Positions 5,062 to 10,652 of a stretch of 11,443 bases of DNA are shown here, piece by piece. Below the pieces are notes generated by a model. It made no database searches. It had not been told where the DNA came from and saw only the letters and a program-made list of their open reading frames with translations. This stretch comes from Desulfobulbaceae bacterium. Lineage in GTDB: Bacteria; Desulfobacterota; Desulfobulbia; Desulfobulbales; Desulfocapsaceae. Location of the stretch: the NCBI GenBank assembly GCA_030632405.1, contig DAOVUU010000032.1, positions 1 through 11,443 on the forward strand, written 5' to 3'. Positions within the stretch are counted from its first letter, which is position 1; each line of letters starts with the position of its first letter. The translations under genes were made by a program, and so were the position numbers.

Positions 5062-6255
5062 TTATTCTGCAGTTTTTATCGACCGCATCACACCCAGCAC
5101 GAATTCGGTGGATGCAAGCAGGTCGGTTTTCAGCCACTTGCTGACTTTCTCAGGATCGTTTTCCGATATTGCATCGATGATTTTCCGGTGATATTCCCCG
5201 CCGGTTCGTGGATCATGGGAAACAGTCTGGCGAAACATTAAATGGTAGTAAGGGCTTGCCTGATCCCAGAGACTTTTTATCATGGAGAGCAGTATAGGCA
5301 TGTCTGCGTTACTGTAGATTGTAAAATGAAACTTGCGATTTGCAGAAAGTATTTTATCCGCATCATTCGTCTTCTGGGCTTCGATGTATTGATTATTTAT
5401 GCCCTTGAGCGTCTCAATACTGTTTTTACCGGCTGCCAGGGTTGCTTTTCGCGCGGCGGTAAGCTCTATCATTAACCGTATCTCAAGAATTTCTTTGAGT
5501 TTCTTCTCCGAGAGCCCATAAACGGTAGTTCCTTTTTGGGGATGAACGATTAATAAATTCCTGGCTGCCAGGCGACCGATGGCCTCGCGGACAGGGATTC
5601 TGCTGATTCCCATTTGTTTTGCCAATGTTTCGGTTATGAGCCTTTCACCTGGTTTTATGCGTGCAGTGACAATTGCATGCTCTAATTCTCTGTAAACCAG
5701 TTCCTGGGTTGTCGGCGTTTGAATGGAGTTTGCTGAATACCCCGGTTCAAATATTGAGGGACTCGGTTCTTTGTTTTCTCTTATTTCTGACAGTTTATGC
5801 TGTGATTCCCACGTTTTTCTCAGGCTCAAAAAACCACTCATCCCTTTTAGTCCGACCCGTTTAAACCAACCACTGACCAGACGCGATGCGCTGGGAAGGG
5901 CCAGGGAACCGTTGCCTTTTCTCGATTTAAAGAGCAGGTCATCTTCGGGTGGATTATTCTGTATAAGATAGCGCTGAAATGATTTATGACTATGTGGTCC
6001 CACTGTTACCGGCACATTGTGTCCATGTCTGCGCCTTAACAGTGAAATTTCCTCACCTACATTTAAATTGACCAGATCTTTAACATGCAGGGTTAAGAGT
6101 TGATTGGCAGTCACTCCAGTTTCAATGGCCAGATCAAACAACAGCAGGTCCCTGGTGTTTGAACCGATAGTTTGTCGCAGGCGGTCAATCTCAGCTGAAC
6201 CCGGTATTGGGTTAGCCTGTTTCTGCCTTTCCTTTGAAAGTGAATTTTGTGTCAT
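5062..6255 (-). CDS. GntR/FCD regulator fused to a tyrosine-recombinase-like N-terminal domain
   Basis: The 397-residue product has two parts. Residues about 182-250 are a GntR winged helix (ELVYRELEHAIVTARIKPGERL, then GISRIPVREAIGRLAARNLL, then KGTTVYGLS), and 255-385 an FCD ligand-binding domain (EILEIRLMIELTAAR; N306/H310 of ANRKFH; H356 of GEYHRK). Such regulators are normally 220-250 residues long. Residues about 20-155 instead resemble the catalytic domain of phage-integrase-type recombinases: LLLFDLAIETGVTANQLLTL (38-57), a hairpin with VPVTVGPHS (81-89), LLFKSRKGNGSLALPSASRLV (107-127 region) and LSLRKTW (143-149). It should be inactive as a recombinase: the box I Arg is T49, the box II His is L143, only R146 remains, and the box III His/Trp and the nucleophilic Tyr are absent. 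The start is fixed by GGAGG (reverse complement of 6263-6267) with a 7-base spacer. Being divergent from the dapF-mttC cluster, it probably controls that cluster and itself. Confidence 0.85.
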   Translation of the reverse strand: MTQNSLSKERQKQANPIPGSAEIDRLRQTIGSNTRDLLLFDLAIETGVTANQLLTLHVKDLVNLNVGEEISLLRRRHGHNVPVTVGPHSHKSFQRYLIQNNPPEDDLLFKSRKGNGSLALPSASRLVSGWFKRVGLKGMSGFLSLRKTWESQHKLSEIRENKEPSPSIFEPGYSANSIQTPTTQELVYRELEHAIVTARIKPGERLITETLAKQMGISRIPVREAIGRLAARNLLIVHPQKGTTVYGLSEKKLKEILEIRLMIELTAARKATLAAGKNSIETLKGINNQYIEAQKTNDADKILSANRKFHFTIYSNADMPILLSMIKSLWDQASPYYHLMFRQTVSHDPRTGGEYHRKIIDAISENDPEKVSKWLKTDLLASTEFVLGVMRSIKTAE

Positions 6256-6262
6256 TCTCGAT

Positions 6263-6304
6263 CCTCCAGGTGCATACTATATTTTGTATAACATTATAAG
6301 GCAA
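6263..6304 (-). promoter_or_regulatory. Promoter and ribosome binding site of the GntR-fusion gene
   Basis: Reading leftward, TTGCCT (complement of 6299-6304) and TATAGT (complement of 6276-6281) are separated by exactly 17 bases, a good sigma70-type promoter. GGAGG (complement of 6263-6267) follows, 7 bases before the ATG at 6255-6253. The predicted leader is only about 15 bases long. The spacer contains a small palindrome (6287-6298) where a repressor could act. Confidence 0.65.
6287..6298. promoter_or_regulatory. Candidate operator within the GntR-gene promoter spacer
   Basis: TATAA and TTATA are symmetric arms around CA. The element lies entirely between the -35 and -10 boxes of the leftward promoter, a position suited to autorepression by a dimeric GntR-family protein. 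Its length and AT content are unremarkable, so chance is possible. Confidence 0.35.
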
Positions 6305-6449
6305 CATTTTTAAAGATATTCGATTTCTCGCCACTGTTTATTGCATGGGGCAGAAAAATTTATTTCCCATAAAAACATGATATTACAGTTAGTTAAGGTG
6401 TGTATTAACCAGTGTTTCCGGAGTGGATCGAATGGTATGTAAAAAACAA

Positions 6450-6479
6450 TTGACAATATAGTGTATGCAGTGTTATCAC
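6450..6479 (+). promoter_or_regulatory. Candidate promoter of the dapF-UroD-mttB-mttC cluster
   Basis: A perfect TTGACA (6450-6455) is followed after 18 bases by TATCAC (6474-6479), preceded by TGT, giving an extended -10 form. A transcript from here would begin near 6486, about 27 bases before the ATG at 6513. An alternative -10, TATAGT at 6457-6462, lacks a good -35. The -10 is weak, consistent with a regulated promoter. Confidence 0.5.
6453..6469 (+). repeat. Promoter motif shared with the divergent regulator gene
   Basis: ACAATATAGTGTATGCA here closely matches ACAAAATATAGTATGCA on the opposite strand (complement of 6271-6287) in the regulator promoter. The two copies have the same orientation relative to their own genes. 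They share ACAA, TATAG and TATGCA with a 2-base shift. This could be a common binding site for the GntR-fusion protein, or just similar -10 regions. Confidence 0.35.
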
Positions 6480-6512
6480 AATATATCATTCAGGCAAATC
6501 GAAGGAATCAAA

Positions 6513-7427
6513 ATGATGAATAATTACCCCCCTGCCGAGCTTATACCGTGGAGTTCTACTGATGGCTCGTGTCTGATAAAACACGGACATCCATTTCTAA
6601 AAATGCATGGCCTGCGAAATGATATTATCATCGTTGATGCACGGTGTGCACCCTTCAACCCTTCCCGTACTGAGATCCAGCGAATTTGTGATCGCAGAGA
6701 AGGTGTGGGAGGGGATGAACTGCTGATCGTTGAGCCCCCTTTGTTTTCCGATGATAACAAAGAGGTTGCAGCATTCATACGAATCATCAATACCGACGGT
6801 CGCGAAGTGGAGGCATGTGGAAATGCTTCCCGTTGTATCGGCTGGCTTCTGATGAAAGAACGTGGTCTTGATTCGGTTTCGTTTCGAACCCTTGGCGGCA
6901 TACTCCGGTGTCATTTGAAGGGAGACCGGAAGGTATCCGTCTCCATGGGACGGCTTCGAACGGCGTGGCATGAGATTCCCCTTGCAAGGGAAATGGACAG
7001 TCTTCACCTCGGCATTGGTACCGGTCCATTGCAGGATCCCGTTGGTATGAATATCGGCAATCCCCACGCCGTCTTTTTTGTCAGTGATATTGAGCAGGTC
7101 GATCTGGAAACCTATGGCTCAGAGCTTCAGCATCATGACCTTTTCCCTGAGGAGGCCAACATCGGTGTTGCCCAGATGATAGATGCAGGCACGATGAAAC
7201 TGGCGGTATGGGAGAGACCCGGAGTACTGACTACAGCCTGTGGTTCAGGTGCATGTGCTGCTGTTGGTGCGGCATATCGCCGTGGGCTCACAGACGGGCG
7301 AGCGGTTCGTGTAATAATGGCCGGTGGCAGCATGGAAATTGAAATTGACGACAGCAACGAGGTAACTATGACCGGCCCTGTGGCTATCTGCTACGCCGGA
7401 TATTTACCATTTGAGGTTGAGAAATAA
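6513..7427 (+). CDS. dapF: DapF-family epimerase in a methyltransferase cluster
   Basis: The 304-residue product belongs to the PLP-independent diaminopimelate epimerase family, which inverts an amino-acid alpha-carbon with two cysteines (LL- to meso-diaminopimelate for true DapF). Counting from M6513: KMHGLRND at 30-37, the first catalytic Cys C102 in ACGNASRC, GNPHAV at 183-188, and the second Cys C243 in ACGSGACAA, preceded by E234-R235. The motifs differ from the common form (GLRND for GLGND, CGNAS for CGNGA, ERPGVLTT before the second Cys); CGNA-type and ACGSGACAA-type motifs recall alphaproteobacterial DapF. An upstream in-frame ATG (6465) would lie inside the promoter; GAAGGA (6501-6506) six bases before 6513 decides the start. 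About 28 extra residues precede the usual N-terminus. It is the first gene of the cluster, so it may act on a methylated amino-acid substrate or product rather than in lysine or cell-wall synthesis. That role is inferred from context only. Confidence 0.85.
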   Translation: MMNNYPPAELIPWSSTDGSCLIKHGHPFLKMHGLRNDIIIVDARCAPFNPSRTEIQRICDRREGVGGDELLIVEPPLFSDDNKEVAAFIRIINTDGREVEACGNASRCIGWLLMKERGLDSVSFRTLGGILRCHLKGDRKVSVSMGRLRTAWHEIPLAREMDSLHLGIGTGPLQDPVGMNIGNPHAVFFVSDIEQVDLETYGSELQHHDLFPEEANIGVAQMIDAGTMKLAVWERPGVLTTACGSGACAAVGAAYRRGLTDGRAVRVIMAGGSMEIEIDDSNEVTMTGPVAICYAGYLPFEVEK

Positions 7428-7478
7428 TTGAAGGGTACGCTATCCACAACGTCATCAATAAGAGGAGTCTGGAATCTA

Positions 7479-8519
7479 ATGAACGCAAGTGAACGAATGG
7501 CTGCAGCAATTGCCTTAAAACCCGTTGATCGTATCCCAAATGCGCCCTTTCAGGAAGCACCTGTATGTCGGTATTTTGGTCGAACCTTCCGCTCAGCTCT
7601 GCTCGAAGATCAGGATATGGCAGATTGTCATATAGAGGCGATCGAAACCTTCCACTTTGACTGGGTGATGGTAGGTATGGGGCTTATTGGCGGAATTATT
7701 CCGGAGGCGATGGGGTGCACGGTCAGCTGGCCTGAAGATGTTTTTCCTGTCATTGAAAAAACAGCTGTATTCTCCATGGAGGATGTGGTCCGGGTTGCCG
7801 AATCGGATGTATATACAGAGCGAATGGATAGGTTTATAGAAGGAATATTAATTCTTAAAGATCGGTTGAAAGGTGAAGTACCGATTGCCTGTGAATATAT
7901 TTCACCCTTTACCATCGCTACAAGACTTCGCGGCACCAATGAGATCATGCTGGATATGTACAAGAACCCTGATCTGGTAAAGGCCCTGCAGGATGCTATT
8001 GTGCCTCTGGATATTGAGATTGGCAAAGCGTTGATAGATGCAGGTGTTGAATATATTTTCTACGGTGCAGATATGGAATGCCCGATCCTGATGTCGCCAA
8101 AACATTACCGGGAATTTATTCATATTCCAACGACGAAGACTGTCAATGCCCTGGCTGATATGGGTGCGCGTGTTTTACCGCATATGTGCGGTTCCATTGT
8201 TGAAACCGGTATTGTGGACATGTTGCTGGAGATGGATATGCACGGTATTATGCCGGGAAATCTGACCCAGTCGACGGTTCTGGATATTCGCGAGTTGAAA
8301 GAAAAGGTCGGCAACCGAACGGCGGTTTTTGACAATTTGAATCCGAACGGGCCGTTGCTGATTGGTACACCGGAGGAAGTTGAAAGAGATACACTGGTTC
8401 ACCTCGAAAGGGCTCGGGGGATGAGTGGTTATCTGTTTTCTACAGCTGGAACCACATCTCCTAACGTACCTAGAGCCAATTTCGATGCGATGAACCGCAC
8501 TGTTTTGAATTTCAAATAA
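7479..8519 (+). CDS. UroD/MtaA-type methyltransferase-family protein
   Basis: The 346-residue product belongs to the uroporphyrinogen-decarboxylase fold group that includes MtaA, MtbA and CmuA, enzymes that move methyl groups between corrinoid proteins and thiol or pterin acceptors. Its N-terminus has the family pattern SERMAAAIALKPVDRIP; YISPFTIATRL lies at about 141-151 and DNLNPNGPLLIGTPEEVERD at about 285-304. Zinc in MtaA-type enzymes is held by His-x-Cys and a distant Cys. Here H235 and C237 are present in LPHMCGS, but the expected Cys in the C-terminal Gly-Cys-x-x-Pro motif is T325 (STAGTTSPNVP). A TTG just after the dapF stop would give 17 more residues; ATG 7479 is preferred because the family motif begins just after it and AGGAG (7463-7467) precedes it, although its 11-base spacer is long. 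With mttB and mttC downstream it is likely the second methyltransferase or an accessory protein. Heme synthesis is unlikely in this context. Confidence 0.85.
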   Translation: MNASERMAAAIALKPVDRIPNAPFQEAPVCRYFGRTFRSALLEDQDMADCHIEAIETFHFDWVMVGMGLIGGIIPEAMGCTVSWPEDVFPVIEKTAVFSMEDVVRVAESDVYTERMDRFIEGILILKDRLKGEVPIACEYISPFTIATRLRGTNEIMLDMYKNPDLVKALQDAIVPLDIEIGKALIDAGVEYIFYGADMECPILMSPKHYREFIHIPTTKTVNALADMGARVLPHMCGSIVETGIVDMLLEMDMHGIMPGNLTQSTVLDIRELKEKVGNRTAVFDNLNPNGPLLIGTPEEVERDTLVHLERARGMSGYLFSTAGTTSPNVPRANFDAMNRTVLNFK

Positions 8520-8548: not shown

Positions 8549-9961
8549 ATGTTTAATAGAGCACTTATTAACTTTGACACGTCTATCCTGGAACAGATTC
8601 ACAGTCGTTCCCTTGAACTTCTGAGCGACTCTGGCATCCGTTTTTTCAGTGAAAAGGCGGTTGATGTATTTCGCAGCAGGGGATTTCGTATAAGCGGGCA
8701 AACTGTATTTTTCGAAGAAAAGGATATTGCAGACGCATTGCAGACAGTTCCCCCGAAATTCACCATCAAGGCCCGAAACCCGGATAAAAATATCTGCATA
8801 GGTGGCGGTGACTATATGATGGCGCCCGGTTACGGACCTCCATTTATCATTGAAACCAGTGGGGAGAAGAGGAATGCCACCCTCAAGGATGTCCACACCT
8901 TCTGCAGACTGGTACAGACATCAGAATATCTTGATTTTAACAGTTCAATAGTTGTTCAGCCAAATGATGTTGCCACCCAGACGGCTCATCTGGATATTCT
9001 GCTTGCAACTATCCTTCTGACAGACAAACCTCTTATGGGCAGCAGTTCATCAGAAATCGCGGCCCGGGACTCATTAAAACTGGCGGAAAGGATTTGGGGA
9101 AACAGCAATGACCCGGTGATGATCTCACTGGTGGATTCACTCTCTCCGCTCCAATATTCTGAAGAATCCCTCGATTCTCTGATGCTCTATGCAGCATCCG
9201 GGCAACCCGTAATTATCCACTCTTCCTGTTCATTGGGATCGACAGGCCCGATCACCATCGCGGGATCATTGGTGATATCCAATGCTACCACTCTGGCCGG
9301 GATTTGCCTCTCTCAACTTATCAGACCAGGAACCCCGATTGTTTATGGTTTAGGAGGCAGCCCCACTGAAATGAGGACCGGAGGCTATGTCAACGCTTCG
9401 CCTGAAGATGCCAAACATACCGCCATTGTCACAGCACTGGGCAGGTTCTACGGGATACCCTGTAGAAGCCAGGGGGCTTTAACGGAATCCTTCTGCCTTG
9501 ATTATCAGGCGGGAATGGAATCTGCAATGATGATGACCACTGCGGCATTATCCGGGGCTGATGTCAGCCTGCACACCTGCGGTACATATGGTTCCATGCT
9601 GGCAATGAGTTTTGAAAAATTCATAGCAGATGAAGATCTCTGTGGAGCACTCAAAAAATTGATGAAGCCTGTGGAGTTCTCAGAAGATGCTTTTGCCATG
9701 GATTTGATAAAGGAACTTGGTACATCCGGGAACTATCTGATGCAGAGACATACCATGAAAAGGTGCCGTACTGAATTCTATGAACCCGCTTTAAATACCC
9801 GGGCCATCCATGCCAGGTGGCAACAGCTGGAATTGCGGGATATGGACAAACGGGCAGGAAAAGTTCTGGAAAACAGGCTCTCGGCCTATGAGAAACCGGA
9901 TATTGATCCTCATCTGGAACGAGACCTGGAGAAGTTTGTTGAAGGAAGAAAAGTGAGTTAA
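8549..9961 (+). CDS. mttB: MttB-family (non-pyrrolysine) amine:corrinoid methyltransferase
   Basis: The 470-residue product matches the trimethylamine methyltransferase (MttB) superfamily, TIM-barrel enzymes that transfer a methyl group from a quaternary or tertiary amine to Co(I) of a partner corrinoid protein. Typical segments are SLELLSDSGIRF (21-32), the IGGGDYMMAPGYGPPFI region (84-100), QTAHLDILLATILLTDKPLMG (144-164 region), SCSLGSTGPITIAGSLV (226-242), GTPIVYGLGGSPTEMRTGG (261-279) and LDYQAGMESAMMMTTAALSGAD (317-338 region). Archaeal MttB has an in-frame UAG read as pyrrolysine; here the frame is uninterrupted, as in the bacterial branch that includes enzymes for glycine betaine, proline betaine, carnitine and butyrobetaine. 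Substrate cannot be assigned. The gene starts 29 bases after the UroD-type gene with only a weak GCGGGA upstream, suggesting translation within an operon. The corrinoid protein follows 67 bases later. Confidence 0.93.
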   Translation: MFNRALINFDTSILEQIHSRSLELLSDSGIRFFSEKAVDVFRSRGFRISGQTVFFEEKDIADALQTVPPKFTIKARNPDKNICIGGGDYMMAPGYGPPFIIETSGEKRNATLKDVHTFCRLVQTSEYLDFNSSIVVQPNDVATQTAHLDILLATILLTDKPLMGSSSSEIAARDSLKLAERIWGNSNDPVMISLVDSLSPLQYSEESLDSLMLYAASGQPVIIHSSCSLGSTGPITIAGSLVISNATTLAGICLSQLIRPGTPIVYGLGGSPTEMRTGGYVNASPEDAKHTAIVTALGRFYGIPCRSQGALTESFCLDYQAGMESAMMMTTAALSGADVSLHTCGTYGSMLAMSFEKFIADEDLCGALKKLMKPVEFSEDAFAMDLIKELGTSGNYLMQRHTMKRCRTEFYEPALNTRAIHARWQQLELRDMDKRAGKVLENRLSAYEKPDIDPHLERDLEKFVEGRKVS

Positions 9962-10028: not shown

Positions 10029-10652
10029 ATGACAGTAAAAACCATTTTTGACGCAGTTATCGTCTTTGACGAGGCAAGGGTACAGGCCCAGACTCAGATA
10101 GAACTTGACGCCGGGACAGATGTGAATACCATTCTGAATGATGGGCTGATCAGTGCTATGGATGAGGTCGGAGAGCTTTTCAGCGCAGGCGATATTTTTG
10201 TGCCTGAGATGCTGATGGCAGCCGAGGCCATGAAGGCCGGGTTAAAGATTCTCAAACCCCACCTGGCCGAGGGCCAGAGTCGAAGCAAAGGCACGGTGAT
10301 CATCGGTACGGTCAAGGGAGACCTGCATGACATAGGCAAGAACCTGGTAAGTATGATGATGGAAGGGGCCGGATTCGAGGTGATTGACCTGGGAGTGGAC
10401 GTTGCCGGTGAGACCTTTGTAGAGACTGCGGCTGAGAAGAATGCCCAGGTGATTGCCTTATCGGCGCTGCTTACCACGACAATGCCGTCAATGGAGAACA
10501 CCATCAAAGCGGTCAAAGAGGCGGGCCTGGAAACCAGAATAATCATCGGCGGTGCACCGGTGACCCAGGTCTTTGCCGATCAGATTGGTGCAGATGGATT
10601 CAGTGCTGACGCTCCAGGGGCAGTCAAACTGGTTAAACAATTACTGACATAG
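10029..10652 (+). CDS. mttC: MttC/MtbC-type corrinoid protein
   Basis: The 207-residue product is a methyl-carrying corrinoid protein. Residues about 1-80 form the helical cap domain (ILNDGLISAMDEVGELFSAG, then FVPEMLMAAEAMKAGL), and 88-207 the B12-binding Rossmann-like domain. The B12 signature is complete: D98-L-H100-D-I-G103, with H100 the lower axial cobalt ligand in this family, S145-x-L in the second loop, and GGAPVT (174-179) in the third. AAGGAG (10015-10020) with an 8-base spacer gives a strong ribosome binding site, fitting the high amounts of corrinoid protein such systems use. It ends the cluster: MttB methylates its Co(I), and a second methyltransferase, possibly the UroD-type protein, removes the methyl group. 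No reductive activator (RamA/RACo type) is encoded nearby, so one elsewhere must keep it active. Confidence 0.96.
   Translation: MTVKTIFDAVIVFDEARVQAQTQIELDAGTDVNTILNDGLISAMDEVGELFSAGDIFVPEMLMAAEAMKAGLKILKPHLAEGQSRSKGTVIIGTVKGDLHDIGKNLVSMMMEGAGFEVIDLGVDVAGETFVETAAEKNAQVIALSALLTTTMPSMENTIKAVKEAGLETRIIIGGAPVTQVFADQIGADGFSADAPGAVKLVKQLLT

Follow-up and report, generated by a model that had tools for sequence, protein, structure and literature searches.

Organisation of the locus

The window analysed here, the whole 11,443-nt stretch of contig DAOVUU010000032.1 from a Desulfobulbaceae bacterium, carries on its minus strand an open reading frame of 397 codons with an ATG start (5062–6255). ORF analysis, Pfam searches and comparison with homologues divide its 397-aa product into a solo-integrase-like domain, a linker, a GntR winged helix-turn-helix (wHTH) and an FCD domain, all encoded on the same strand. 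The degenerate tyrosine-recombinase catalytic domain, delimited by Pfam, PDB profiles and alignment, spans residues 12–156 (5788–6222) and ends after box II; a variable linker (residues 157–177; 5725–5787) stands in place of the box III/Tyr part of a recombinase; and Pfam places the GntR winged-helix DNA-binding domain at residues 184–245 (5521–5706; E = 3e-16) and the FCD effector-binding/dimer domain at residues 255–377 (5125–5493; E = 1.1e-22). In the GntR/FCD family, FCD binds a small ligand and dimerises, while the GntR helices bind the operator. The order of GntR followed by FCD is typical of GntR/FadR (FCD) regulators, whereas the wHTH is not N-terminal as is the norm in this family, starting instead at residue 184. 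A GGAGG ribosome binding site lies 7 nt 5' of the ATG (6263–6267, minus strand, by sequence inspection). The ribosome binding site and uninterrupted 397-codon frame of the original prediction were both found, while its 'good promoter' did not hold up: two promoter-like sites, matching 9 of 12 positions, were seen against a mean of 1.6 in shuffled sequence.

On the plus strand, a divergent run of genes encodes a DapF-like epimerase (6465–7427, the true start possibly lying further in), an MtaA/URO-D-like methyltransferase (7428–8519), an MttB-family methyltransferase without an in-frame stop (8549–9961) and a corrinoid protein of the MttC/MtgC type (10029–10652), all four being presumed targets of the regulator. 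The location next to mttB/mttC genes had been anticipated, and the neighbourhood is indeed the same, but these genes lie on the opposite strand and are separated from the regulator by the DapF-like and MtaA-like genes. A 62-bp block 5' of the divergent genes (6430–6491, no strand assigned) is well conserved in the one pair aligned, between the window and the intergenic region of the congener G004, making it a candidate promoter/operator of the divergent operon; G004 keeps the divergent gene arrangement of the window up to its contig end.

When the whole protein was searched, Phage_integrase (PF00589) matched residues 22–149 over profile positions 7–136 of 172 (E = 2.2e-5), and the front part alone gave E = 5.2e-6 and 26.8 bits, slightly under the 27.1-bit cut-off; the NCBIfam model XerA matched the whole protein at 3.2e-7, under the cut-off of that model. 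Among PDB structures, profile A2, made from 21 front parts of fused proteins, matched XerH (5jjv, 3.8e-7), XerA (5hxy, 1.2e-6) and 4a8e (4e-6), and retrieved nothing below 0.1 other than tyrosine recombinases. In alignment A1 (103 of the 120 best-listed homologues, with the window's own sequence replacing P0001), GntR followed by FCD was present in 103/103 members and Phage_integrase, at E ≤ 1e-3, in 86/103. These matches agree with the original prediction of phage-integrase-like residues that precede a GntR–FCD protein and stop after box II, and from such profiles we infer a recombinase fold for the front part, together with any DNA-facing surface that it may carry. In the FCD domain, the polar residues R260 (179/179), N306 (178/179), H310 (179/179) and H356 (176/179), which we take to be pocket residues, are conserved across the fused alignment described below.

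Catalytic residues of the front domain

A search with A2 over lengths of ~80–254 residues returned 1172 proteins at E ≤ 1e-3. The best 120 were mostly integrases of ~200 residues, a few of the top ones being pieces of fused proteins, and among these 120 the nearest relatives of the front part were 'solo' integrases, catalytic-domain-only proteins of ~200 aa found in Desulfobacterota and others. Alignment of 115 fused proteins with 108 solos was collinear between the PI motif at the N-terminus and LRKT, with homology ending sharply at about residue 156. The solos are not fused and differ from the front part in keeping all six catalytic residues (R, K, H, R, H and Y), every one of them present in 105 or 106 of the 108 sequences. 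In the window protein, the box I Arg column (R in 105/108 solos) holds T49 (6109–6111), the catalytic Lys column (106/108) R76, and the box II His column (105/108) L143 (5827–5829), in line with the residue assignments made originally; the second Arg (106/108) is kept as R146 of LRKT (5818–5820; all codons on the minus strand). The second His and the Tyr of the solos (each 105/108) fall past residue ~156, beyond the end of fused–solo homology, so box III and the catalytic Tyr are absent, as had been predicted. The R-K-H-R-H/W plus Tyr set of an active tyrosine recombinase is not present in the window protein.

The same condition prevails across 179 fused proteins. The box I Arg is kept in 19, the catalytic Lys in 86 and the second Arg in 161, while the box II His occurs in a single protein (P0109), where the box I column holds Pro; none of the 179 combines the box I Arg with the box II His. 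From residue 150 to the GntR part there are only 17–31 residues (median 25), and the [HW]x7-10Y strings present in 4/179 linkers are taken for chance. Of 50 columns conserved at ≥90% in solos, 21 are kept in fused proteins (including R35, K113, G114, W130, R146 and K147), 8 partly kept and 21 lost (including R49, D52, T77, K79 and H143). Most of the losses are at box I, in the beta-hairpin, at the box II His and in the stretch that follows LRKT; the hairpin signature found in solos (K76-T77-G78-K79, plus E74 and N81) has largely decayed. The net charge of the front domain has a median of +9 in fused proteins (quartiles 6 to 11), compared to +14 over the same span in solos.

Since the box III/nucleophile piece is missing and the box II His and mostly the box I Arg are replaced, the front part should be unable to recombine DNA, and judged by its residues it is catalytically dead as a recombinase. 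The sequence data support the view that the protein is a GntR–FCD regulator preceded by a captured, catalytically dead tyrosine-recombinase domain.

Distribution of the fusion

Homologues were collected with the window protein (best 120 of 680 at E ≤ 1e-3, the remainder probably including unfused GntR proteins) and with the front part of P0102 (best 120 of 181). The two lists, after exclusion of ids from the solo search, held 184 different ids; 179 proteins of 360–470 residues were aligned, and five shorter than 360 aa were left out. The two-part architecture is therefore common to at least 179 full-length proteins, including the window's own near-identical cluster P0001. All 179 carry the front domain ahead of the wHTH, with R35 in 179/179, W130 in 178/179 and K113 in 174/179, and close homologues do not begin near residue 180.

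At the genome level, a search of 257 genomes from the order found the fusion, with both parts verified, in G000, G001 and G004, three of the seven representatives of the window's genus, and in two further members of its family, G146 and G149. It is also present in Desulfococcaceae (L031), a Spirochaetes MAG (L032), SAR324 (L033, three paralogues) and Desulfobacterales (L034), these four loci being among the 80 listed by a contig scan whose patterns all lay in the GntR–FCD part. At least 8 of the 291 genomes of L031's order have it (G636, G712, G860, G687, G820, G696, G864 and G806, the gene of G806 being cut by a contig end), and G748 and G903 have short frames covering the front part that may be either cut fusions or solos. 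A sample of 395 genomes from the phylum yielded a single match with a frame of >260 aa at E ≤ 1e-10, namely the window's own. The recurrence in many proteins and genomes led us to reject a front part unique to this genome or produced by assembly, and the occurrence of 179 full-length proteins in several lineages upholds the earlier view of a working gene rather than a chance junction. A further candidate for an extended GntR protein, a 370-aa frame at L030, was discarded, its extension being merely open frame upstream of the likely start.

Several individual loci deserve mention. The SAR324 genome G638 has three fused paralogues (L187, L188 and L189), each adjoining a different uptake/catabolic gene set. 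In a Spirochaetes MAG, a fused regulator (L190, 7777–8970, minus strand) has as neighbours the genes of a peptide ABC transporter together with a DapF-like and an MtaA-like gene; its presence there may reflect horizontal transfer or a binning error, and the seven other genomes searched in that order gave no match. P0123 (173 aa, on a 25 kb contig) is a dead domain apparently without GntR–FCD, 60% identical to that of the window, and could be a split gene. In the congener G003 (contig C196), the stretch L175 4651–4800 is 58% identical to fused residues 348–397 within a 53-codon frame, the rest missing, and looks like a remnant.

Origin of the fusion and selection on the front part

In a tree of the front part (117 rows, 145 columns), the 38 fused rows group together as a single clade with 100/100 support, nested among solos that occupy several deeper branches; 33 of the 114 inner forks are open and many are weak. 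A tree of the GntR–FCD part, built by a quick method from 147 rows, likewise places all fused rows in a single 39-row set (SH-aLRT 96), with no unfused protein within the fused clade; L034, which falls inside this set, is fused itself, with SGKG in place of the RKG by which fused rows were recognised. One clade of fused rows in the trees of both halves points to a single capture. The simplest account of the sequences would be one fusion event, probably in an ancestor within Desulfobacterota, followed by duplication (as in the three SAR324 copies) and transfer.

The 19 fused proteins that keep the box I Arg are scattered over deeper fused branches in a quick-method tree of 68 rows, in which 37 of 79 inner forks are open, and they are absent from a 28-row subgroup holding the window's relatives (SH-aLRT 89). 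Labelling this tree by the box I residue needs at least eight changes, three of them forced by starred branches. The box I Arg was thus probably lost repeatedly, in events that came later than the fusion. An earlier candidate for the first fused branch, P0102 (93/78, the sole Arg-keeper in the front-part tree), was refuted by the tree containing all 19 Arg-keepers.

To gauge constraint we used dN/dS between the window and G004 (76% identical), the single measurable pair, that of the window and G001 being saturated. The NG86 method gave 0.189 (domain), 0.433 (linker), 0.095 (GntR) and 0.149 (FCD); the corresponding YN00 values were 0.258, no value, 0.121 and 0.225. In this one pair, purifying selection on the front part is close to that on FCD, and across 115 proteins column conservation in residues 21–60 and 101–140 equals that of much of FCD. 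The anticipated conservation of the fusion across lineages with constraint on its N-terminal part is thus observed in 179 proteins and, with a front-part dN/dS of 0.19, in one pair. The loss of catalytic residues and the variable linker could also be expected of an inert passenger acquired when two genes fused by accident. Such a passenger would have to have been kept in 179 proteins with R35, W130 and K113 nearly invariant, under selection similar to that on FCD in the measured pair and without one unfused protein inside the fused clade of the 147-row tree, and we consider this explanation highly improbable.

Solo integrases and a second capture

Solos are common in the phylum, and some genomes hold three or four copies. 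One of them (L229 1–3338) has a 150-residue N-terminal extension and lies beside a ubiquitin-like set, its neighbours resembling ThiF/E1-, E2- and JAB-type proteins by eye.

Their presence raises the question of whether the fused protein could be a non-catalytic recombination subunit that works with a solo integrase in trans. Integrase domains were detected in 24 of the 395 phylum genomes at E ≤ 1e-10, a count that covers the fusion of the window, and in 59 of the 291 genomes of L031's order at E ≤ 1e-15, again counting fusions; G146, G639 and G696 hold a fusion together with a solo, and G820 has a solo-sized frame with one stop. An ORF resembling a transposase by eye also occurs at 2 of the 17 fused loci (L173 and L230). 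On the other hand, 12 of the 16 genomes with verified fusions (G000, G001, G004, G146, G149, G636–G639, G712, G860, G687, G820, G696, G864 and G806) gave no solo-sized match at the thresholds used, a count to be read with the 73% completeness of the window's genome and the strict threshold of the 291-genome search in mind, and the ORF starts that were read reveal no mobile gene as a recurrent neighbour of the fusions. A role as such a subunit is therefore very unlikely. An obligate solo partner was also judged unlikely, as few fused genomes hold a solo as well.

A different arrangement was met in four proteins of 600–640 residues from three genomes, in which a full-length solo-type integrase domain is followed by PAS-PAS according to Pfam (L225 3–1802, minus strand; L226 3393–5273, plus; L227 1596–3515, plus; L228 1422–3341, minus). 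Three of them have a C-terminal LuxR-type HTH, and L225 is cut there by the contig end. These fusions are present in 3 of the 291 genomes of L031's order, and the same three were found in a search of 389 genomes, together with one further frame, in G884, that holds a stop. The box I Arg is present in L226 only and the box II His in L225 and L226, while all four have the second His and the Tyr. In a quick tree they form a separate clade (SH-aLRT 96) whose nearest rows are different solos from those next to the fused GntR clade, which indicates that this integrase group entered regulators at least twice; on sequence, integrase–PAS-PAS–LuxR is a second, independent capture by a regulator. More tentatively, and with the odds somewhat against it, solos of Desulfobacterota and neighbouring groups may recurrently supply DNA-binding or assembly parts (at least two captures), and may perhaps themselves be sequence-specific DNA binders that regulate genes.

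Genomic context of fused regulators

Neighbouring genes were compared by tblastn between 17 fused loci and 20 unfused control loci from G006, G007, G011 and G019, in each of which the GntR–FCD gene was verified. MttB, MtaA or MttC genes were near 8/17 fused and 0/20 unfused loci (Fisher p = 6e-4, uncorrected), and the Pro_racemase/OCD/AcnX group near 5/17 and 1/20, respectively (p = 0.075); both p values are rough, as the queries were drawn from fused loci and the loci are related by descent. Besides the window, MttB is found near the fused genes of L031, L034, L233 and L235, MtaA/URO-D near those of L031, L171 and L190, and a corrinoid protein with a URO-D piece at L231. DapF-like genes are near the fused genes of L171 and L190. 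Other fused loci adjoin Pro_racemase (L173, L174 and L230), OCD (L173 and L188) or AcnX (L189), families known from the breakdown of hydroxyproline and proline, and uptake systems adjoin some of them.

As 9/17 fused loci have no MttB, MtaA or MttC and contexts differ, the regulator could instead act on distant genes, the MttB neighbourhood being incidental. The excess of these genes over the unfused loci speaks against this, as does the fact that other fused loci lie next to uptake systems and to members of the Pro_racemase, OCD or AcnX families, and we regard distant targets as unlikely. FadR-type operator sites, sought at 10 of the 17 fused loci, were near chance at nine (1–4 seen, shuffled means 1.0–4.8; one of the two sites at L188 was exact) and above chance at L034 (3 versus 0.83).

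The DapF-like gene at 6465–7427 is one of three in the window's genome. Its recurrence beside MtaA in L171 and L190 suggests that the protein may epimerise a betaine rather than diaminopimelate.

Proposed function and relation to known systems

The reading that we favour, and consider likely to be correct, is that of a local GntR/FCD regulator of the divergent catabolic genes in which a once-captured, dead solo-integrase domain serves as an accessory module. Under this model, a one-component GntR/FadR (FCD) regulator would control the divergent DapF-like epimerase, MtaA, MttB and MttC genes, which would serve the demethylation of a quaternary amine or betaine. Its N-terminal 155 residues would derive from a solo tyrosine integrase fused once upstream of a GntR–FCD gene, with the recombinase core and its basic charge retained and the box III/nucleophile piece absent past the junction. 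The FCD-dimerised protein would sit on its operator through the GntR helices, and its two recombinase-derived domains may make additional contacts, with the DNA on either side or from one dimer to the next, tightening control or making it cooperative until an FCD ligand releases it. The control of adjacent genes, the FCD ligand and the contacts attributed to the front domain are inferred.

Retention of the front part and its basic charge would fit an added DNA contact, while the eroded hairpin signature and the drop in charge from +14 to +9 speak against the usual DNA grip of a recombinase. The loss of the hairpin signature would rather fit a protein-contact role, and the front domain could chiefly be a protein-interaction or oligomerisation module without DNA contact, in which the surface laid bare where the box III/Tyr helices are missing binds a second copy or a partner. 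This has precedents in the available text of two studies. In TnsF, a partial, inactivated recombinase catalytic domain is predicted, with support from mutants, to contact TniQ (PMC10293859), and in NanR, an N-terminal extension of only 32 residues makes a GntR regulator cooperative through dimer–dimer contacts that couple dimers on DNA (PMC8012715). The hairpin signature and part of the basic charge are gone and the core is kept, as such a module would have it; however, the domain is still basic, R35 is invariant, R146 is retained in 161/179 and no partner gene recurs in all contexts in which ORF starts were read. A purely protein-binding module thus appears a less probable, if reasonable, alternative, and accessory DNA contact is ranked somewhat ahead of it.

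Among characterised regulators, PdhR, LldR, NanR and CsiR (GntR/FadR, FCD) share the GntR wHTH and FCD in the usual order, but in the window protein these are preceded by ~180 residues that include a recombinase-derived domain, and its matches to the NCBIfam models of these regulators were all below cut-offs. TnsF of Tn6022 resembles the front domain in being a partial and dead tyrosine-recombinase catalytic domain put to non-catalytic use; it differs, according to the available text, in having zinc fingers and core-binding domains and in acting as the target selector of a Tn7-like transposon (PMC10293859). By comparison, the window has the catalytic-domain core alone, fused to a host regulator with catabolic neighbours; Pfam identified no zinc fingers or tandem core-binding domains in the window protein, and no Tn7-like genes were recognised in the 17 fused contexts from the ORF starts read. 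The ALOG domains of plants, in which a tyrosine-recombinase part has given rise to a predicted transcription factor, are similar but eukaryotic, as far as the available text indicates (PMC3537659). In the IntDes tyrosine recombinases of Desulfovibrio, too, the first Arg is shifted and the first His replaced, but these enzymes contain an arm-binding domain, and the available text mentions no GntR fusion (PMC8138268).

A bacterial review deals with the takeover of ready-made HTH regulators and with programmed rearrangements by integrases, and its available text describes no recombinase catalytic domain as part of a regulator (PMC8987985). Among the matches listed, the titles and abstract openings revealed no publication on a recombinase domain fused to GntR or PAS-LuxR, and the terms integrase, recombinase and domain architecture are all absent from a paper on GntR motifs (PMC4494728).

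These proteins would represent a clear example, from bacteria, of a transcription factor that has incorporated the catalytic domain of a recombinase. In eukaryotes, the conversion of transposases into regulators is well known. Stages of decay are visible among living relatives, with 19/179 still keeping the box I Arg, nearly all having lost the box II His and none showing homology as far as box III and the Tyr. The family would show how an enzyme of mobile DNA can become, in bacteria, a component of the switch that controls nutrient-breakdown genes, and it names a testable group of regulators for the catabolism of methylated amines and imino acids.
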